In this document: positions 20,188-62,181 of the stretch, piece after piece
Layout of the letters: each line of letters begins with the position of its first letter
Position numbering within the stretch: position 1 is the first letter of the stretch
Notes under the pieces: model-generated
Told to the model about the DNA's origin: nothing
What the model saw: only the letters and a program-made list of their open reading frames with translations
The model's database searches: none
NCBI GenBank assembly: GCA_015178975.1
Contig: WHVD01000012.1
Location: 124,001-188,000 of the forward strand
Source of the DNA: Hysterangium stoloniferum
Lineage: Eukaryota > Basidiomycota > Agaricomycetes > Hysterangiales > Hysterangiaceae
Direction of reading: 5' to 3'
Length of the DNA: 64,000 nucleotides
Translations under genes and position numbers: made by a program

Positions 20188-20799
20188 GTACCCCCCTGTT
20201 AGGCTGGAAGTCCCATAGAGGTGATTAGGTACTGAGTGATTGAAGCAACAGCTGATCATTAGGTGTCATGAAATTTACACAATTCTGGAGGTGAGAGTTT
20301 CGGCTGCTGGTCTCAGTATAAAAATTTCCAAATATTTGAATTAACAATTTTGTTTCTTTAACCACAACTTGCATGTTGATTCGTCGGCCATTGTTTATCA
20401 CTACTGGCCCTCCGAATATACATTTTGATAACTATTTATTTAACTATTTATTTACTTTATGAGGTCATTATTTAGGTCATAATGACCTCATATTCTACTT
20501 ATTTTTTACCCTTTATTTACCATGTGATTCCCCTCTCTGAGACAAGGGTTCCAACCTTTGGCTTGAACATGAAGGTTCAAGGCCACAGTCCTGGGATGGA
20601 AGCAATTGATGAGTTGGCGGAATCAAATAATGACTTAAGTAGTCACATCCATGACTTGTGTGATATCCCAACACCGGAGGCTTATCTAATAAGTCACATG
20701 ACTCCAAAAATTACGCAAACAAGGCTGCAGCAAGGTGCCAAAAAGCAATAACTAAGGAGGATATCTGTGTAAGAATTACATAAGCAGGGTGAAAATATT
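20188..20799. other. polypurine tract and unassigned stretch
   Basis: Beyond the putative polypurine tract at 20188-20200 (minus sense) there is AT-rich DNA with one 89-codon plus frame (20482-20751) containing HSPGMEAIDELAESNNDLSS. I do not recognise it; it may be a leftover of the retroelement or of a host gene. Confidence 0.35.
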
Positions 20800-20878
20800 G
20801 ACCTGAGCTGGATTTGAACCAGTGACCACTAAGTTTGGATTACATGTCTAGTGCTCTTAACCCCTGAGCTATCAGGCC
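20800..20878 (-). tRNA. tRNA-Thr(UGU)-like pseudogene or SINE head
   Basis: On the minus strand the acceptor arms GGCCTGA and TCAGGTC pair over 7 bp. The D-stem GCTC/GAGC and T-arm ACTGG-TTCAAAT-CCAGC are present, and the B box GGTTCAAATCC is intact. The anticodon arm is disturbed: a 6-nt insertion on its 3' side and no U33 (loop CATGTAA, nominal anticodon TGT). So it is a decayed tRNA or the tRNA-derived head of a SINE, not a working gene. Confidence 0.6.
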
Positions 20879-20977
20879 ATTAAGAGTAGTTCTATTAAGA
20901 ACCAGTTACTACTGAGATGATTAGTTATCAGTAAGATATTAATATATCCAGGTCAACCATTACTCATTCAACAATCT

Positions 20978-38618: not shown

Positions 38619-38743
38619 CACCTACAAACACTACAGGCAAAGGTGCAAGCACGATTACATACATAATCACACAGCCACCTGCATGAAAAGCAGCCATGCA
38701 GCAGCATTGCAACACAATGCAGTGGTGGCACAGCCAAATGATG

Positions 38744-38872
38744 TGTTAAAAGTGTAGAAAATGAATGGCCAGACTGGGGATTGAACCCAGGGCTTCTGCT
38801 TACATAACAGAGGTGTTAACCCATTACACCATCTAACCCTGGGAAACTGTGCTAGCATTACTCAATCTAACA
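38744..38872 (-). repeat. 129-bp LTR-like unit with internal tRNA fold, copy 1
   Basis: On the minus strand it starts TGTTAGATTGAG and ends ACACTTTTAACA, the TG…CA ends of an LTR. It is an inverted copy of 39147-39275 with one mismatch over 129 bp. A complete tRNA cloverleaf lies inside (38767-38838). No flanking duplication. Confidence 0.8.
38767..38838 (-). tRNA. tRNA-like cloverleaf, nominal anticodon UGU (Thr)
   Basis: 72 nt folding fully: acceptor GGTTAGA/TCTGGCC (7 bp with two G-U), D-stem GTGT/ACAC, anticodon stem TCTGT/GCAGA, T-stem CTGGG/CCCAG with loop TTCAATC. Anticodon loop TATGTAA lacks the universal U33, so function as a tRNA is doubtful; the A and B boxes could still serve RNA polymerase III. 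Confidence 0.65.
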
Positions 38873-39015
38873 CACTCCCTTAATGCTAGCACTCAATTAT
38901 ATTATAAGCAGATATAGGTCCTCTCTGGCTCTTTTGTCCAGACTTGTCCACTATACCACACAGAAATATAGCTGTTCACTCTACACACAGGAACCATGCC
39001 TTATAGCACACAGAA

Positions 39016-39143
39016 GGGCCCATAACCTGTTAGAATTCAAGACCCATATTATTAGGGAGTCATGGATAAGTATAACAGACTAAGTAACATAGTAACAGAC
39101 TCTTAGTATTTATACAAGGTGACATGGCCCTATATCCCCGTGT
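39016..39143 (-). mobile_element. Ty1/copia LTR end plus primer-binding site
   Basis: 39028-39143 is the inverse of part of the copia LTR at 41897-42084 (GTCTTGAATTCTAACA end; TATAAATACTAAGAGTCTGT). Beside it, minus strand, GGTTATGGGCCC (39027-39016) resembles the complement of the initiator tRNA-Met anticodon arm, the primer used by copia-type elements. The rest of the element is absent. Confidence 0.65.
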
Positions 39144-39146
39144 GTT

Positions 39147-39275
39147 TGTTAGATTGAGTAATGCTAGCACAGTTTCCCAGGGTTAGATGGTGTAATGGGT
39201 TAACACCTCTGTTATGTAAGCAGAAGCCCTGGGTTCAATTCCCAGTCTGGCCATTCATTTTCTACACTTTTAACA
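39147..39275 (+). repeat. 129-bp LTR-like unit with internal tRNA fold, copy 2
   Basis: Mirror of 38744-38872, TGTTAGATTG to TTTTAACA. It is followed at once by GGTTATGGGCCC (39276-39287), the same copia-type primer site, as an LTR would be. Its 5' edge lies inside the copia LTR fragment. Confidence 0.8.
39181..39252 (+). tRNA. tRNA-like cloverleaf, nominal anticodon UGU (Thr)
   Basis: Identical to 38767-38838 except for one base in the T loop (TTCAATT). All four stems pair. The fold sits inside an LTR-like unit, so it may be a domesticated promoter rather than a tRNA gene. Confidence 0.65.
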
Positions 39276-39287
39276 GGTTATGGGCCC
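39276..39287 (+). promoter_or_regulatory. copia-type primer-binding site
   Basis: GGTTATGGGCCC immediately 3' of a TTTTAACA end; one mismatch from the complement of the iMet-tRNA anticodon arm. Also at 39027-39016 and 61899-61888 (minus). Confidence 0.55.
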
Positions 39288-40059
39288 TGGCTCGTGCCGT
39301 ATAACCAAGTGACAAAACACTGTCCAATTGTGTTTTCGAGTCTCAAGACCCACCTTCCACTTTCTGCACAGGTTGTATTCATCTTCGAAATACTCTTCGC
39401 AATATTTTCTTTAGGGCTTATTATTCAGGACTAATCCCAACAATAACCATTTGAAAATCCATTTATCACATCTACCATAATTCTATTTCATCCACAAGAC
39501 TTTACAACCGTTCTACAATCGAGAACTCAAATAACATCACTCATCGCCATTCTATGGTCTCCGGCAGGGAACTACGTAACAGGAGGAGTAGAGTGGTGAG
39601 AGGGAGCATTGAGAGTTAAGACTCCGCACAATAGGAAGGAGGTGGTCCCTATGTTTATGTTTGATGCACTGATCGCGGCTGCCTTCATATCTTCCATTCT
39701 TTAGAGTGGCGAGGAGGAGTATTGAGAAGAGAACACCACACTATGGAAAGAAGCGACCCCTCCTTTATTTAGGTTCGCTGCGCAATAGTGTCTATCCATC
39801 CTTCACCGCACTTGTCACACGTGCATTATACCCGCCATCCTTCAATGTCTCTCTCAACCTACTCTAGCACGTAATTGCATCCACTTCATTGTCTCATCAT
39901 CACCACATGTTTTGACAGCATCTGCACTCAACGTGCTCAACTTTGTCACCCTATCTGGCCTATCCAATCCGCGATGCAAGCACATCTACTATCACGACAG
40001 CATCCATTTCAAACACTGCTCAAAACATTATGATGCATAAATGTCATTTTATTATTGCC

Positions 40060-40175
40060 TCTGTGTGAATTTTTAATGGATAAACGTCTCTTCATTATCA
40101 CCTCTGTGCGAATTTTTTAGTGTGCTAATACGCACCATCATCTTATATTGCCTCTGAGTGCAATTTTTGCCATCA
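40060..40175 (+). repeat. degenerate tandem repeat, about 55-bp unit x3
   Basis: ATTGCCTCTGTGTGAATTTT, ATCACCTCTGTGCGAATTTT and ATTGCCTCTGAGTGCAATTT at 40056, 40099 and 40147. Confidence 0.7.
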
Positions 40176-40194
40176 TTTTTCTGTTGGCTATATT

Positions 40195-40470
40195 TTCTTG
40201 GAACCACCTGTTCCAAAGTCTACTGCAACCACTCCTCAATAGGAACTAGGTAATTTCTGGGACAAAATTTATGGCAAAATTTATAGAGCTTAAACTTGAA
40301 TTTTTATGGAACCGCCTGTTCCAAGTTGACCGCGACCATCTCTCTCTGGCCAGTGACGAAACTTACAGCAATATAGCTCAATTGTTTATGGAACTGCTTG
40401 TTTCAAGTCCACTGCACCCACCTTTGTGTGGCTATTTCGGTGACAAAATTTATGGCACAATTTATTGAGT
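40195..40470 (+). repeat. degenerate tandem repeat, about 85-bp unit x3
   Basis: GGAACCACCTGTTCCAAAG, GGAACCGCCTGTTCCAAGT and GGAACTGCTTGTTTCAAGT head three units; two end with GACAAAATTTATGGCA. Confidence 0.75.
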
Positions 40471-40784
40471 ATAAAACTCACATTTCATTTCCTCGACATT
40501 CGATCCTTCTATTTTTTGACAGGCGTATGCATAATCAGGAAACAACAATCTATGCCAGCTTAACGGCACATTTATAGGGCATATGTATAATCAAGAGGCA
40601 ATACCACTTTTCAGACCAAGACCTTAATACCGTAACAGGGCAGGAAGCTTCGACATCTTGCCTTATGAATTTATTTTAGGCCAAATCTGACTCTGGAATA
40701 CCCTCAATAATCTACTACTTTTTATTACTTCTCTAGCAATGCGTCGGTCCTTATACAAGACCTACACGGGCTGAGGAGGAGAAT

Positions 40785-40885
40785 TTTGGACCTATGTTAT
40801 ACGAGCCAGCAAGCTCTATTTTGGACCTATGATATATGACCCAGAAAGCTTTATTTTGGACCTACGTTATACGACCCAAAATTCA
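40785..40885 (+). repeat. tandem repeat, about 41-bp unit x3
   Basis: TTTTGGACCTATGTTATACG, TTTTGGACCTATGATATATG and TTTTGGACCTACGTTATACG. Confidence 0.85.
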
Positions 40886-41896
40886 CTTCACATTTTGTAC
40901 CCTCGTCGGTGCACCAAAGCTATGCGATTTGAGGAGGAGAATTTCAGTCCTGTCATGTGCGACTCAGCAAGCTTTCCAGACCAACATCCTCACTTGGTTT
41001 ACCCACACAGTGCTAGACATTGTCACCTAGTTGCCATACGGGACAATCTATCCCATTGCCCCATTCCTAGTTGCTGCTGCCCTGTTTCTTTTGGTCCGAA
41101 ATGCTCCCTCCAATTTTGGGCCAGCATCTTCGGACATATGAATTGGCGCATTTTCGCAGGTCTATAATGTGGCATGCAGGGCAAAACAACATATGTTCAA
41201 TCATTCTATACTGGGAAATTATGTACCACACATCACTATCTCACTGACTTTGTGGGTGATGAATGCTTAGCCAGGGCCTGTTCCTACTTCTATCCCCCCT
41301 GCACGCTCACTATCGCGACCAAACGCTGTAGTTGACATTGTGTCCCTCATCGTGTCTGTCAGCACACTCATCACACACACACTATGCAGATAACAGCGTC
41401 CACCATTCTTCCTATGATGACATCCACACGTTATCAAATACCCGTGGTCGACACCCATTCTTGAGATGGAGTACTGCAGTGAGGAGGAGTGTTGAAGAAC
41501 AAAGAACACCACATATGCTGCAGGGTCGACCATATCAGGAGTTGTGACACCAACACAGTAGAGAAGGGTAGTAAGAGGAGACGCCTCTTGGTCTTGATTT
41601 TTTTAACATCGAACCCTAGAACCATGCGTATCGCCACCCTCGAACCCTAGAACATCCTCTGACGTCCATTTGGAACACTATGACACGTCATTGTGTCTAT
41701 CGACTGTTCACACTCTCGCTGATTTTTCAACATCGGGGAGTGATAACAACGATTGCCTTTTCATTCTCACCCATAGCATTCTCATTTGATCCCAAATTTA
41801 TTCTGGAGACAGGCGTCTAGAGACTCATCCGAAGGAAGACTCCCATGCATGCATGAGGAGGAGCTTACCTTAACTGTTGTCCATGCTGAGGAGGAG

Positions 41897-42084
41897 TGTT
41901 GGAAAGCATCATGGACAACAGTGTCTATTCTTAGAATGACCAAGGGATGGTCTCCGGAACTTGTGGACACATGGGGATATAGGGCCGTGTCACATTGTAT
42001 AAATACTAAGAGTCTGTTACTATGTTACTTAGTCTGTTATACTTATCCATGACTCCCTAATAATATGGGTCTTGAATTCTAACA
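41897..42084 (+). mobile_element. Ty1/copia LTR, 188 bp
   Basis: TGTTGGAAAG … GAATTCTAACA, with TGTT/AACA ends, a TATA box (TGTATAAATACTAAG) and a purine tract GCTGAGGAGGAG directly upstream, all as in a 3' LTR. A partial inverted copy lies at 39028-39143. No intact element attached. Confidence 0.75.
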
Positions 42085-42294
42085 TGATGATGTCAACATA
42101 TGTAAGGCTGACACCACCTCCACCCTGATGGACACAGTGCTTTGCACTGTGTGCCCATGAGGCCTCTGGATGTGCTGGTACTGCAAAAACAGTTGGCACC
42201 CATGCAAGGTGGGCTTACATAAGTGCCAAAAGTGTGGCTATGCACTGAAGGTGCATACATGCCATTTTTAGTGTTTTTCTCAGATTTTTAATAA
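42085..42294 (+). other. short cysteine-rich frame
   Basis: One frame reads CWYCKNSWHPCKVGLHKCQK then CGYALKVHTCHF, zinc-ribbon-like spacing, with a stop just upstream. It could be the fossil of a small zinc-finger protein or chance. Confidence 0.25.
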
Positions 42295-59446: not shown

Positions 59447-62181
59447 GGGTGCTAGGGATCATATCCCCTCAAGGTGGACATGACAGGAATGGAGGAGAAT
59501 GGAAGGAAACAACAACCCTTCAACCATCGCTCCCCCCTCCCAGGGCATAAATGGACGGATTTTGCTGAGACAGATTGCAGTGACAGGGACACACCATGTT
59601 GGTCGATGTTCAGTTTTTCAGAAAGACAGCATGACTGACAGCTTCTCCCCATAGAGAACGTGGTAAGCCACTGTCATGAAGCATGGCATGAACCTTCTCT
59701 ATGAGAGTGCGATTCAAACGCTCAGCAACACCGTTATGCTGGGGGGTATCATGAACTGTAAGTTTTTGTGCTGTACCCACATTCTTCAAATGGAGTGTGA
59801 ATTCCTTTCCTAGGTACTCACCACCTCAATCTGAGTGAAGGGTTTTCACCTTGGCTCCCATCTGTGTATGGCACCATGCTTCACACTCCTTGCAAGCAGG
59901 AAAAGCAGCAGACTTCTGCTTTAAAAGGTAAAGGTGTGTGAAATGAGTTTTATCATCTGTGAAGGATATATAGTATCTTCATCCCCGCAGAGTAGCGACA
60001 GGTGCAGGACCCCAAATATCTGTATGGACCTCTCCAGCGAACTCTGTGGCACAGTCCCCTTGGTGGGTCTTGGCAATAGGCTTCCTAGTTGCTTTGGGAT
60101 AGATGCAAGGCTCACAGAAAGTAAGCTCATCTGATGTTGTATCCAGTTTGAGGCCGCTGACAAGGCCTTTTTCAACTAGTCACTGTGCAACTTCAGGTGC
60201 AATGTGCCCCATCCGATGATGAAGTTCCATGACAGTGACACTTTCTGTTTCAGTTACAGCATGTGTAATACCACCAGTTTCATGAACCACTCTGTAAAGT
60301 CCTTTCGCCATCTTGGGAACCTGACCAATGACTTCACCGTCAGGATCAGTGATAGTGCACATACCATTCCCAAAAGTGGAGGAGAATCCTTTTTCATCAA
60401 GATGGCCAATTGACACTAATGTGTAGCCTACTTCAGATGAAAAAAGCACTTCAGTAAGTCGAAGCATAGAATCATCAAACCCATTTGGAACCTGGATGAC
60501 CATTTCTCCAACTCCTGTAGCAGCAAAACTCTGTTTATTTGCAGCAGTGAATGACTTCAGGGGAATGCTAGAAAGGGTATCAAACATTTTCCGGTAAGGA
60601 GATATGTGTCGTGTAGTTCCAGAGTCATATAACTCAACCATTGGCTTGTCAGGAGAATCTGTGCTGACCCCAGCAGCTGTTCCGACTTCCTCGTCCTGGG
60701 CTCTGGGTGAGTGAGACCTTTTGTCCATGAACAATCCACTGTTGCTCATCTCAGATACTTCCAGGTCTTCCATTTCGCAGCCTAGAGGTGAATCATCATC
60801 ACCTACTTCAGAGAACCAGTCATTGACATTCTCTTCATTTTCCATGTGGTCTTCAATATCTGCAATAGAGGAAGACTCGACAGACAGGAGTTCAGGTAAG
60901 GAGCTCTTGTCAAAAAGACTAAACTCAGACTCACTGACTGCGAATGCTCCATCCTTGGAGTTGGAGTCCTCAGTGACATTGGCCAAACCTTCATTTGGCT
61001 TCAGAAGGCCTTTATTTGCCTTGGGTGGGAGTGGACACTTGCACTTTAAGTGTTCAGTTGAACCACAGTTCCAACAAGCCCGTGGGGGCCTATCACTGGT
61101 GTATTGACTATTGAGGTATCTGGTTTTGCTATCAACTGCCATGGCTTCATGAGCAATGTCAATGCCCTTGACTTGACGGTGCAGAGGGTACCCCATTGTT
61201 TGACATTCCCACTCTTCAGATATGATGGAAATGAGGATATCTGGGTCAATGATCTTGGTAGGACTCCAGAGCTTGGCAGAGGTAAACTGGTTTGAGGTGA
61301 AGTTGGCAAGAGAGTTTGAAAGGGATTTGATGATTGTAGAGCAATAATCCTTTTCATCAATTGTAACTCCAACTGATGCAAGTTCCTCACACTTTGTCCA
61401 TAAACCATCCAGGAACTGCCATACATCACCTCCACCAGGGCATGATGACTCAAGGAATTGTGTCTGCAGCTCTGTTTGTGCATATGCTCCTTTCTCAGTG
61501 AACTCCCGAGTGATCTCTGCCGACATGGCAGTGACAGTGGCAAGACCCTTGACACGTAATGCTGTTGAATCAGGGATTCATTGGGTAAGCAGGTTTTTCG
61601 CTAGGCTCTCATTCTTGCACCATTTGTTGATACCTGCTGTTTCAACAGTGGTAGGCATGGTGGTGACAAGAGGGGATGGGCAGGGATTACTGCCATCAAA
61701 CTGATTCTAGAGTTCTTTGGCTTCTACTGCAGTCTGGAAACAAAAAACGAAAATAGCCCAGTTGGTCCCTTTCAGGTCAAGCTTGGGTACATTGTTAGGG
61801 AGGGTGTCAGTAGTGATGGAACCAGTGAGGGGCATGGTTCACGAGGTAAGGTAGTGTACAAATAGTGAGATGTGAGATTATAGTGGAGGGCCCATAACCT
61901 ATAATCTGTAACGAGACAGTTACACTCAGTCGTGTGCAGATAGTATGCAAATGTCTGAGGTGATGTGTACCTAGCTCAAAGACTAAATATGAAATGTAGT
62001 CTTTTCATGTACAAATAAGTAAATCAATAATCACATTGTTGAAAATGTTATATGAAACCAGGTTAGTGTGATGAGACACTAAACAAAAAAGGAGTCGGAC
62101 AAAGATATATATCAATTGTGTCATTTCAGGACAATCAGAAACAAAGGGTCAATAGCCTGTGTCGCACTTGAATTTCCAACA
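59447..62181 (-). mobile_element. Ty1/copia element fossil, 3'-truncated
   Basis: Minus strand: 5' LTR 62181-61900 (TGTTGGAAATTC start), primer site GGTTATGGGCCC 61899-61888, gag from ATG 61835 (MPLTGSITTDTLPNNVPKLD), knuckle CWNCGSTEHLKCKCP (about 61085), protease VELYDSGTTRHISPY (60645), GAG-pre-integrase MELHHRMGHIAPEVA (60230), and integrase pieces EVHTDIWGPAPV (60020), KVKTLHSD and PQHNGVAERLNRTLIEKVHA (59700). Homology ends around 59447 at the gypsy boundary, so RT, RNase H and 3' LTR are missing. A few interruptions besides the truncation. One long frame (61526-60180) is still open, suggesting moderate age. Confidence 0.88.
61900..62181 (-). mobile_element. 5' LTR of the copia element
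   Basis: 282 bp between the primer site and the host-gene fragment at 62182; begins TGTTGGAAATTC on the minus strand. Confidence 0.7.

Follow-up and report, generated by a model that had tools for sequence, protein, structure and literature searches.

Two inverted 129-bp units in a 64,000-nucleotide stretch of Hysterangium stoloniferum DNA (the window) are LTRs of a TRIM. They do not form the LTR pair of a single element; they are parts of a composite made of two. In the account that we favor, a Helenus-type TRIM was co-packaged with a larger Copia-type element, the two exchanged 5' LTRs at the primer site they have in common, and the products became joined into a composite. We put the probability of this account as a whole at roughly 80%.

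The inverted copies, first pointed out in an earlier note on this DNA, occupy 38744-38872 (minus strand) and 39147-39275 (plus strand) and differ at a single base (T/C at LTR position 94). Both have the TG...CA ends described there, beginning TGTTAG and finishing TTTTAACA. The note was right to take the units for LTRs; that the locus combines two elements had gone unnoticed. On the left, after a copy of the duplication TGATG (38739-38743), the composite (38744-42084) starts with a minus-strand half that runs COP-HINT-HEL when read on its own strand. Its 3' LTR is the Helenus-type LTR, HEL (38744-38872), followed by the 155-bp internal region of the TRIM, HINT (38873-39027), with a primer site at 39016-39027 and a purine tract that ends AAGGGAGTG at 38873. 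Next comes the last 118 bp of a second LTR, COP (LTR positions 71-188; 39028-39145, minus strand), 97.5% identical to 41967-42084. An odd base at 39146 belongs to neither LTR. The plus-strand half consists of a second HEL in the role of the larger element's 5' LTR (39147-39275), the larger element's internal region, INT2 (39276-41896), which is apparently non-coding, of Copia type and ends with the purine tract GAGGAGGAG, and a 188-bp COP as 3' LTR (41897-42084). The right-hand TGATG follows at 42085-42089. The primer site of the larger element, GGTTATGGGCCC (39276-39287), adjoins the plus-strand HEL and complements 12 nt of the anticodon arm of the host tRNA-iMet genes, so the earlier label of a copia-type primer site is correct.

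Elsewhere in the genome, COP stands immediately upstream of INT2 (for example at C8:277031-277221, followed by 277222-277452), and HEL stands immediately upstream of HINT at other copies. These adjacencies show that the 5' LTRs have been swapped in the window, exactly at the common primer site. The left end of the composite is the U5 (3') end of the minus-strand HEL, both outer ends are U5 ends, and one perfect duplication, TGATG, lies on either side of the whole. We consider it very probable that the composite was inserted as a single unit.

Sequence other than HEL was found upstream of HINT at seven sites: C24 (the window), C290, C58, C124, C135, C533 and C140. They come from a set of 33 distinct HINT-site sequences, in which identical copies at different places were merged and which was used for these seven junctions only. 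The seven upstream sequences all differ, and in every case the junction consists of AACA followed directly by GGTTATGGGCCC, a combination with 631 occurrences in the genome. Because the hybrid sites were found by their similarity to the window, we claim no frequency for them. A perfect target-site duplication (TSD) surrounds the whole hybrid at each of the four sites checked for one, namely the window (TGATG), C135 (GCCAT), C533 (TGAGA) and C140 (AGGTA). The order at C135 is LTR-HINT-HEL-internal region-LTR. At C141 the order is HEL-HINT-HEL-INT2, interrupted by another, nested copy, and the HEL-INT2 junction is that of the window.

Copia elements may mobilize the TRIM; two of the hybrids, at C533 and C140, involve gag-pol Copia elements. 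C533 is a Copia copy with its own 5' LTR, then HINT-HEL, then the primer site and gag. Searched against Pfam, four of five open pieces contained Copia-type domains (gag, beta-barrel, integrase, SH3-like and RT) and one contained none. At C140, HEL, the primer site, gag through pol, HINT and HEL follow one another over 4649 bp within AGGTA, 1.2 kb of the middle not having been read, so that Copia gag and pol are enclosed by two tRNA-bearing LTRs. The two HEL copies there are identical at 124 of 129 positions, the 5' copy ending AATA instead of AACA, and the pol-HINT junction coincides with AACAGATATGGG, a primer-site look-alike, in L070, a 98% identical copy of pol. Six open pieces taken from the Copia element at C533 had no match in INT2 at E <= 1e-5. 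Copia gag and pol remnants do occur elsewhere in the window, at 59613-61577 on the minus strand, with Retrotran_gag_2 and Pol_BBD domains and tblastn matches to C533 pieces (59613-60638, minus strand).

Tandems of the TRIM family itself, each within a single outer TSD, were found at C16 (TCGTG), C517 (GATTC), C66 (CTATC), C510 (AATCT) and C520 (TTTAT). Judged by three diagnostic positions, one LTR-subfamily junction in the C510 array apparently lies inside the internal region and not at the primer site. Further rearrangements may be present at C35:966638-967110, where two LTR-primer-site junctions on opposite strands, separated by 457 bp, could mark another head-to-head join, and at C61:146972-147360 and C254:29252-29640, where a COP-type LTR is followed directly by an inverted primer site and an inverted LTR. 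The layout common to the last two is seemingly a rearranged form that has propagated.

We propose a cycle in which Pol III would initiate near the tRNA-like sequence of the 5' LTR and terminate at the TTTT 3' of its counterpart in the 3' LTR. Judging by the hybrids, a Copia element that shares the primer site would then package the TRIM RNA in trans. A tRNA-iMet fragment would prime at GGTTATGGGCCCCGC, the main form of the TRIM primer site, for which 15 nt of complementarity to the host tRNA-iMet anticodon arm is observed, against 12 nt for the window copy; three copies of this tRNA gene turned up when the host genome was searched by pattern. Integration of the TRIM DNA, as observed, generates a 5-bp duplication. 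In LTR elements it is established that plus-strand strong-stop DNA ends 3' in a copied primer site, through which it normally pairs with the minus strand of the same element. If the TRIM were co-packaged with a larger Copia-type element, the plus-strand strong-stop DNA of one could instead move onto the other's minus strand, and at a common primer site the outcome would be a reciprocal exchange of 5' LTRs. Repeated transfer would build LTR-INT-LTR-INT chains. For the window, the reciprocal products would in addition have joined head to head, the U3 end of HEL entering the COP LTR at about position 70/71 in a step resembling self-integration, and the joined molecule would have integrated once through its two U5 ends, leaving TGATG on both sides.

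Transfer at the primer site would place junctions there regardless of which LTRs are involved, in agreement with the observed sites, and we regard it as the probable cause of the exchange. Template switching in the R region, proposed for wheat elements (PMC1950507), is not a step at which one would expect unrelated LTRs to become joined. Counting against our account, the C510 junction described above apparently lies away from the primer site, the 5' HEL of C140 ends AATA, the two COP copies in the window are 2.5% apart compared with 0.8% for the two HEL copies, and the head-to-head join requires an additional step and leaves one base unexplained. More tentatively, strand transfer may recur in this genome as a way for tRNA-LTR TRIMs and Copia-type elements to exchange LTRs, and one that may enclose gag and pol between Pol III-type LTRs, as at C140.

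The main rival to strand transfer is recombination after insertion, in which one-LTR circles of the TRIM recombined into resident elements at the short homology provided by the primer site and the window locus underwent an inversion between its inverted primer-site repeats. Inverted stretches at 39015-39042 and 39261-39288 (28 nt, 86%) coincide with the two limits that such an inversion requires, and LTR-LTR recombination accounts equally well for the same-family tandems and maybe for the C510 array. The foreign LTRs, however, have little in common with the TRIM apart from AACA and the 12-nt primer site, and it is here that all seven junctions are located; an inversion alone leaves the perfect LTR end beside the left TGATG unaccounted for. 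We therefore hold post-insertion recombination to be possible but rather doubtful as the source of the hybrids and the composite. Repeats this long and numerous may also mislead assemblers; even so, an assembly chimera is very unlikely and was rejected, since the composite has a perfect TSD at its outer ends and the same type of junction recurs at six other sites on other contigs.

Both HEL copies contain a tRNA-like sequence, at 38766-38838 on the minus strand and 39181-39253 on the plus strand. The cloverleaf described in the earlier note was recovered in each by ARAGORN as a 73-nt tRNA-Thr(TGT), and the Rfam model RF00005, whose gathering score is 29, accepted both, at 50.6 and 52.9 bits. 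An Rfam scan of the window returned tRNA only and no 5S. In a set of 93 distinct LTR copies, 91 have the A box, 89 the B box and 90 a TTTT 3' of the B box; TTTTT was present in none. Within the family, the mean minor-allele fraction was 0.036 for the A box and 0.044 for the B box, compared with 0.053 for U3, 0.048 between the boxes, and 0.021 and 0.003 farther 3', and by this measure the boxes were not clearly better conserved than the remaining LTR. Depletion of TTTT outside U5 was not significant either (P = 0.185, one copy each of three families). Because box conservation and terminator depletion were indecisive, we infer Pol III transcription from the anatomy of the LTR, in which the tRNA-derived sequence most likely serves as an internal Pol III promoter.

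Covariance scores above the cut-off would also be expected of genuine tRNA-Thr or tRNA-Ile genes that the element has spread, a reading that the anticodon loop makes highly improbable. The loop is TATGTAA in the window and TATATAT in most fetched copies. Every one of the 87 readable loops has A at position 33 (6 of the 93 LTR copies were unreadable), and the anticodon varies, being TAT in most copies and TGT in some. U33 is, to our knowledge, near-universal in tRNAs; A33 thus makes a decoding function unlikely for these sequences, and decoding tRNA genes were rejected on A33 together with the variable anticodon.

Direct-orientation pairs of the unit with a primer site and purine tract between them, which the earlier note had recommended looking for, exist in the genome. 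They enclose a 155-bp internal region in an element of 411 bp (128 + 155 + 128; individual LTRs are 128 or 129 bp), too short for a retrotransposon protein, with the purine tract AAGGGAGTG just 5' of the 3' LTR. These LTR-INT-LTR copies bear out the proposal of an LTR or TRIM with tRNA-derived sequence, its promoter function being inferred. Perfect 5-bp TSDs flanked 27 of the 28 simple full copies examined, whereas pairing the flanks of different copies gave 2 matches in 756. Among copies classed as solo LTRs, four of five had a TSD and the fifth was the 5' LTR of a larger element. The two LTRs were identical (128/128) in 24 of the 28 full copies; as the copies retrieved were those most similar to the query copies, with 40 of several hundred candidates scored per search, their recency holds for that sample and not for the family at large. 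A 30-nt tRNA/LTR signature, searched with up to two mismatches in the 111-Mb host genome (554 contigs), occurred 462 times (242 + 220). The reversed pattern, used as a control, occurred 0 times, so the signature is not a product of chance. We consider it almost certain that the 129-bp units are LTRs of a non-coding, 411-bp, Helenus-type TRIM.

Copies ending within the tRNA, or with a SINE-type tail, had been named as signs of a plain tRNA-derived SINE. Four 5'-truncated copies (L083-L086) do begin within the tRNA-like sequence, all at LTR position 47, which falls in the A box. Each of them retains an intact 3' LTR and a perfect 5-bp TSD and has no SINE tail, and the reading as LTRs still stands; the truncation possibly reflects plus-strand priming at an alternative tract within the LTR (GGTGGTG/T). 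A SINE, which the tRNA-like head and high copy number might suggest, is barely credible and was rejected, because paired direct LTRs, a primer site and a purine tract contradict the single-unit form, the TSDs are fixed at 5 bp and the examined copies have no SINE tail.

Other tRNA-bearing LTRs occur in the window and elsewhere in the genome. A 206-bp solo LTR of a second family lies at 20768-20973 on the minus strand, its tRNA-like part at 20798-20879; in this family, 8 of 10 fetched solo copies had a perfect 5-bp TSD; for the window copy, 4 of the 5 bases agree. L093 (C4:59600-61150) represents a third family, whose anticodon is ATA, and has four LTRs and three internal regions within the TSD GGTTG, the middle internal region being unlike the outer two. 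L081 (C520:240950-242150) has four 65-bp LTRs flanked by TTTAT, in which the tRNA has been almost entirely lost between CCCAG repeats. This tRNA-less junction had exact matches only in L081, and two matches with two mismatches (C29 and C431) begin GTTTCCCA. Many tRNA matches of about 95 nt lie on both strands of C112:913000-1219100, a cluster that could be an array of tRNA genes or a different tRNA-derived repeat. The genome-wide tRNA search scored 63 of 5384 candidates and is not a tRNA gene count; hundreds of tRNA-like LTRs would inflate such counts for this host. The best 5.8S/ITS stretch of the host genome (L091) and its Copia-type gag suggest a basidiomycete that resembles Agaricomycetes more than rusts.

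In several insertions the TRIM is physically linked at the primer site to another element, in two of them to one with Copia gag or pol, and the question of which helpers serve Pol III-promoter TRIMs thereby becomes testable from sequence. If strand transfer is indeed a recurring route, the hybrids would be a genomic record of which autonomous elements mobilize which TRIMs, and strand transfer would be a way for TRIMs with tRNA-bearing LTRs to originate and switch helper. A search of open-licence PMC papers turned up no description of hybrids that join unrelated LTR elements at the primer site. LTR exchange as such is not new, since Du et al. (2010), going by the title, reportedly described swaps of LTRs between autonomous soybean elements and their non-autonomous partners. 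Hybrids that join unrelated elements, including Copia gag and pol, at the primer site may be new, and the soybean work may cover part of this.

TRIMs with tRNA-derived sequence in the LTR were named as a class, Helenus (TRIMp3), by Kojima in 2024 (PMC10886601). In the accessible part of that description, Helenus elements resemble the 411-bp element in being shorter than 1000 bp and non-coding, with two LTRs, a primer site and polypurine tract beside them and A and B boxes in the LTR, and in having many tRNA-like loci and tandem arrays, the latter published for a zebrafish family. Most fungal members also have 5-bp TSDs and a primer site for the anticodon loop of tRNA-iMet, a mode of priming stated there for Drosophila Copia, Ty5 and most fungal Helenus. 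Plant Helenus likewise have 5-bp TSDs, and Copia is given as the mobilizer of the fungal ones. By these features, though not by sequence comparison, the 411-bp element fits Helenus, and its kind is therefore already known. Helpers were inferred there from primer-site similarity and one common internal region; that account, as far as accessible, has neither the primer-site hybrids nor the gag-pol between tRNA-bearing LTRs found here. A meeting report (PMC12859917) is the sole later mention of the class that came up.

Cassandra, as described in the accessible part of PMC7215508, likewise has a Pol III-type promoter in its LTR and forms tandem LTR-INT arrays, for which template switching is proposed as one origin. 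It differs in carrying 5S instead of tRNA sequence, in its plant hosts and in its primer site, TGGTATCAGAGC. According to the accessible text of PMC5668417, recombination within LTRs falls mostly at the first template switch, in the R region, and involves members of one family. Comparable to the window composite are complexes in Triticeae that have three LTRs within one flanking 5-bp duplication and are attributed to template switching between two co-packaged RNAs (PMC1950507). The partners in those complexes are closely related and the switch lies at R, whereas here unrelated LTRs meet at the primer site.
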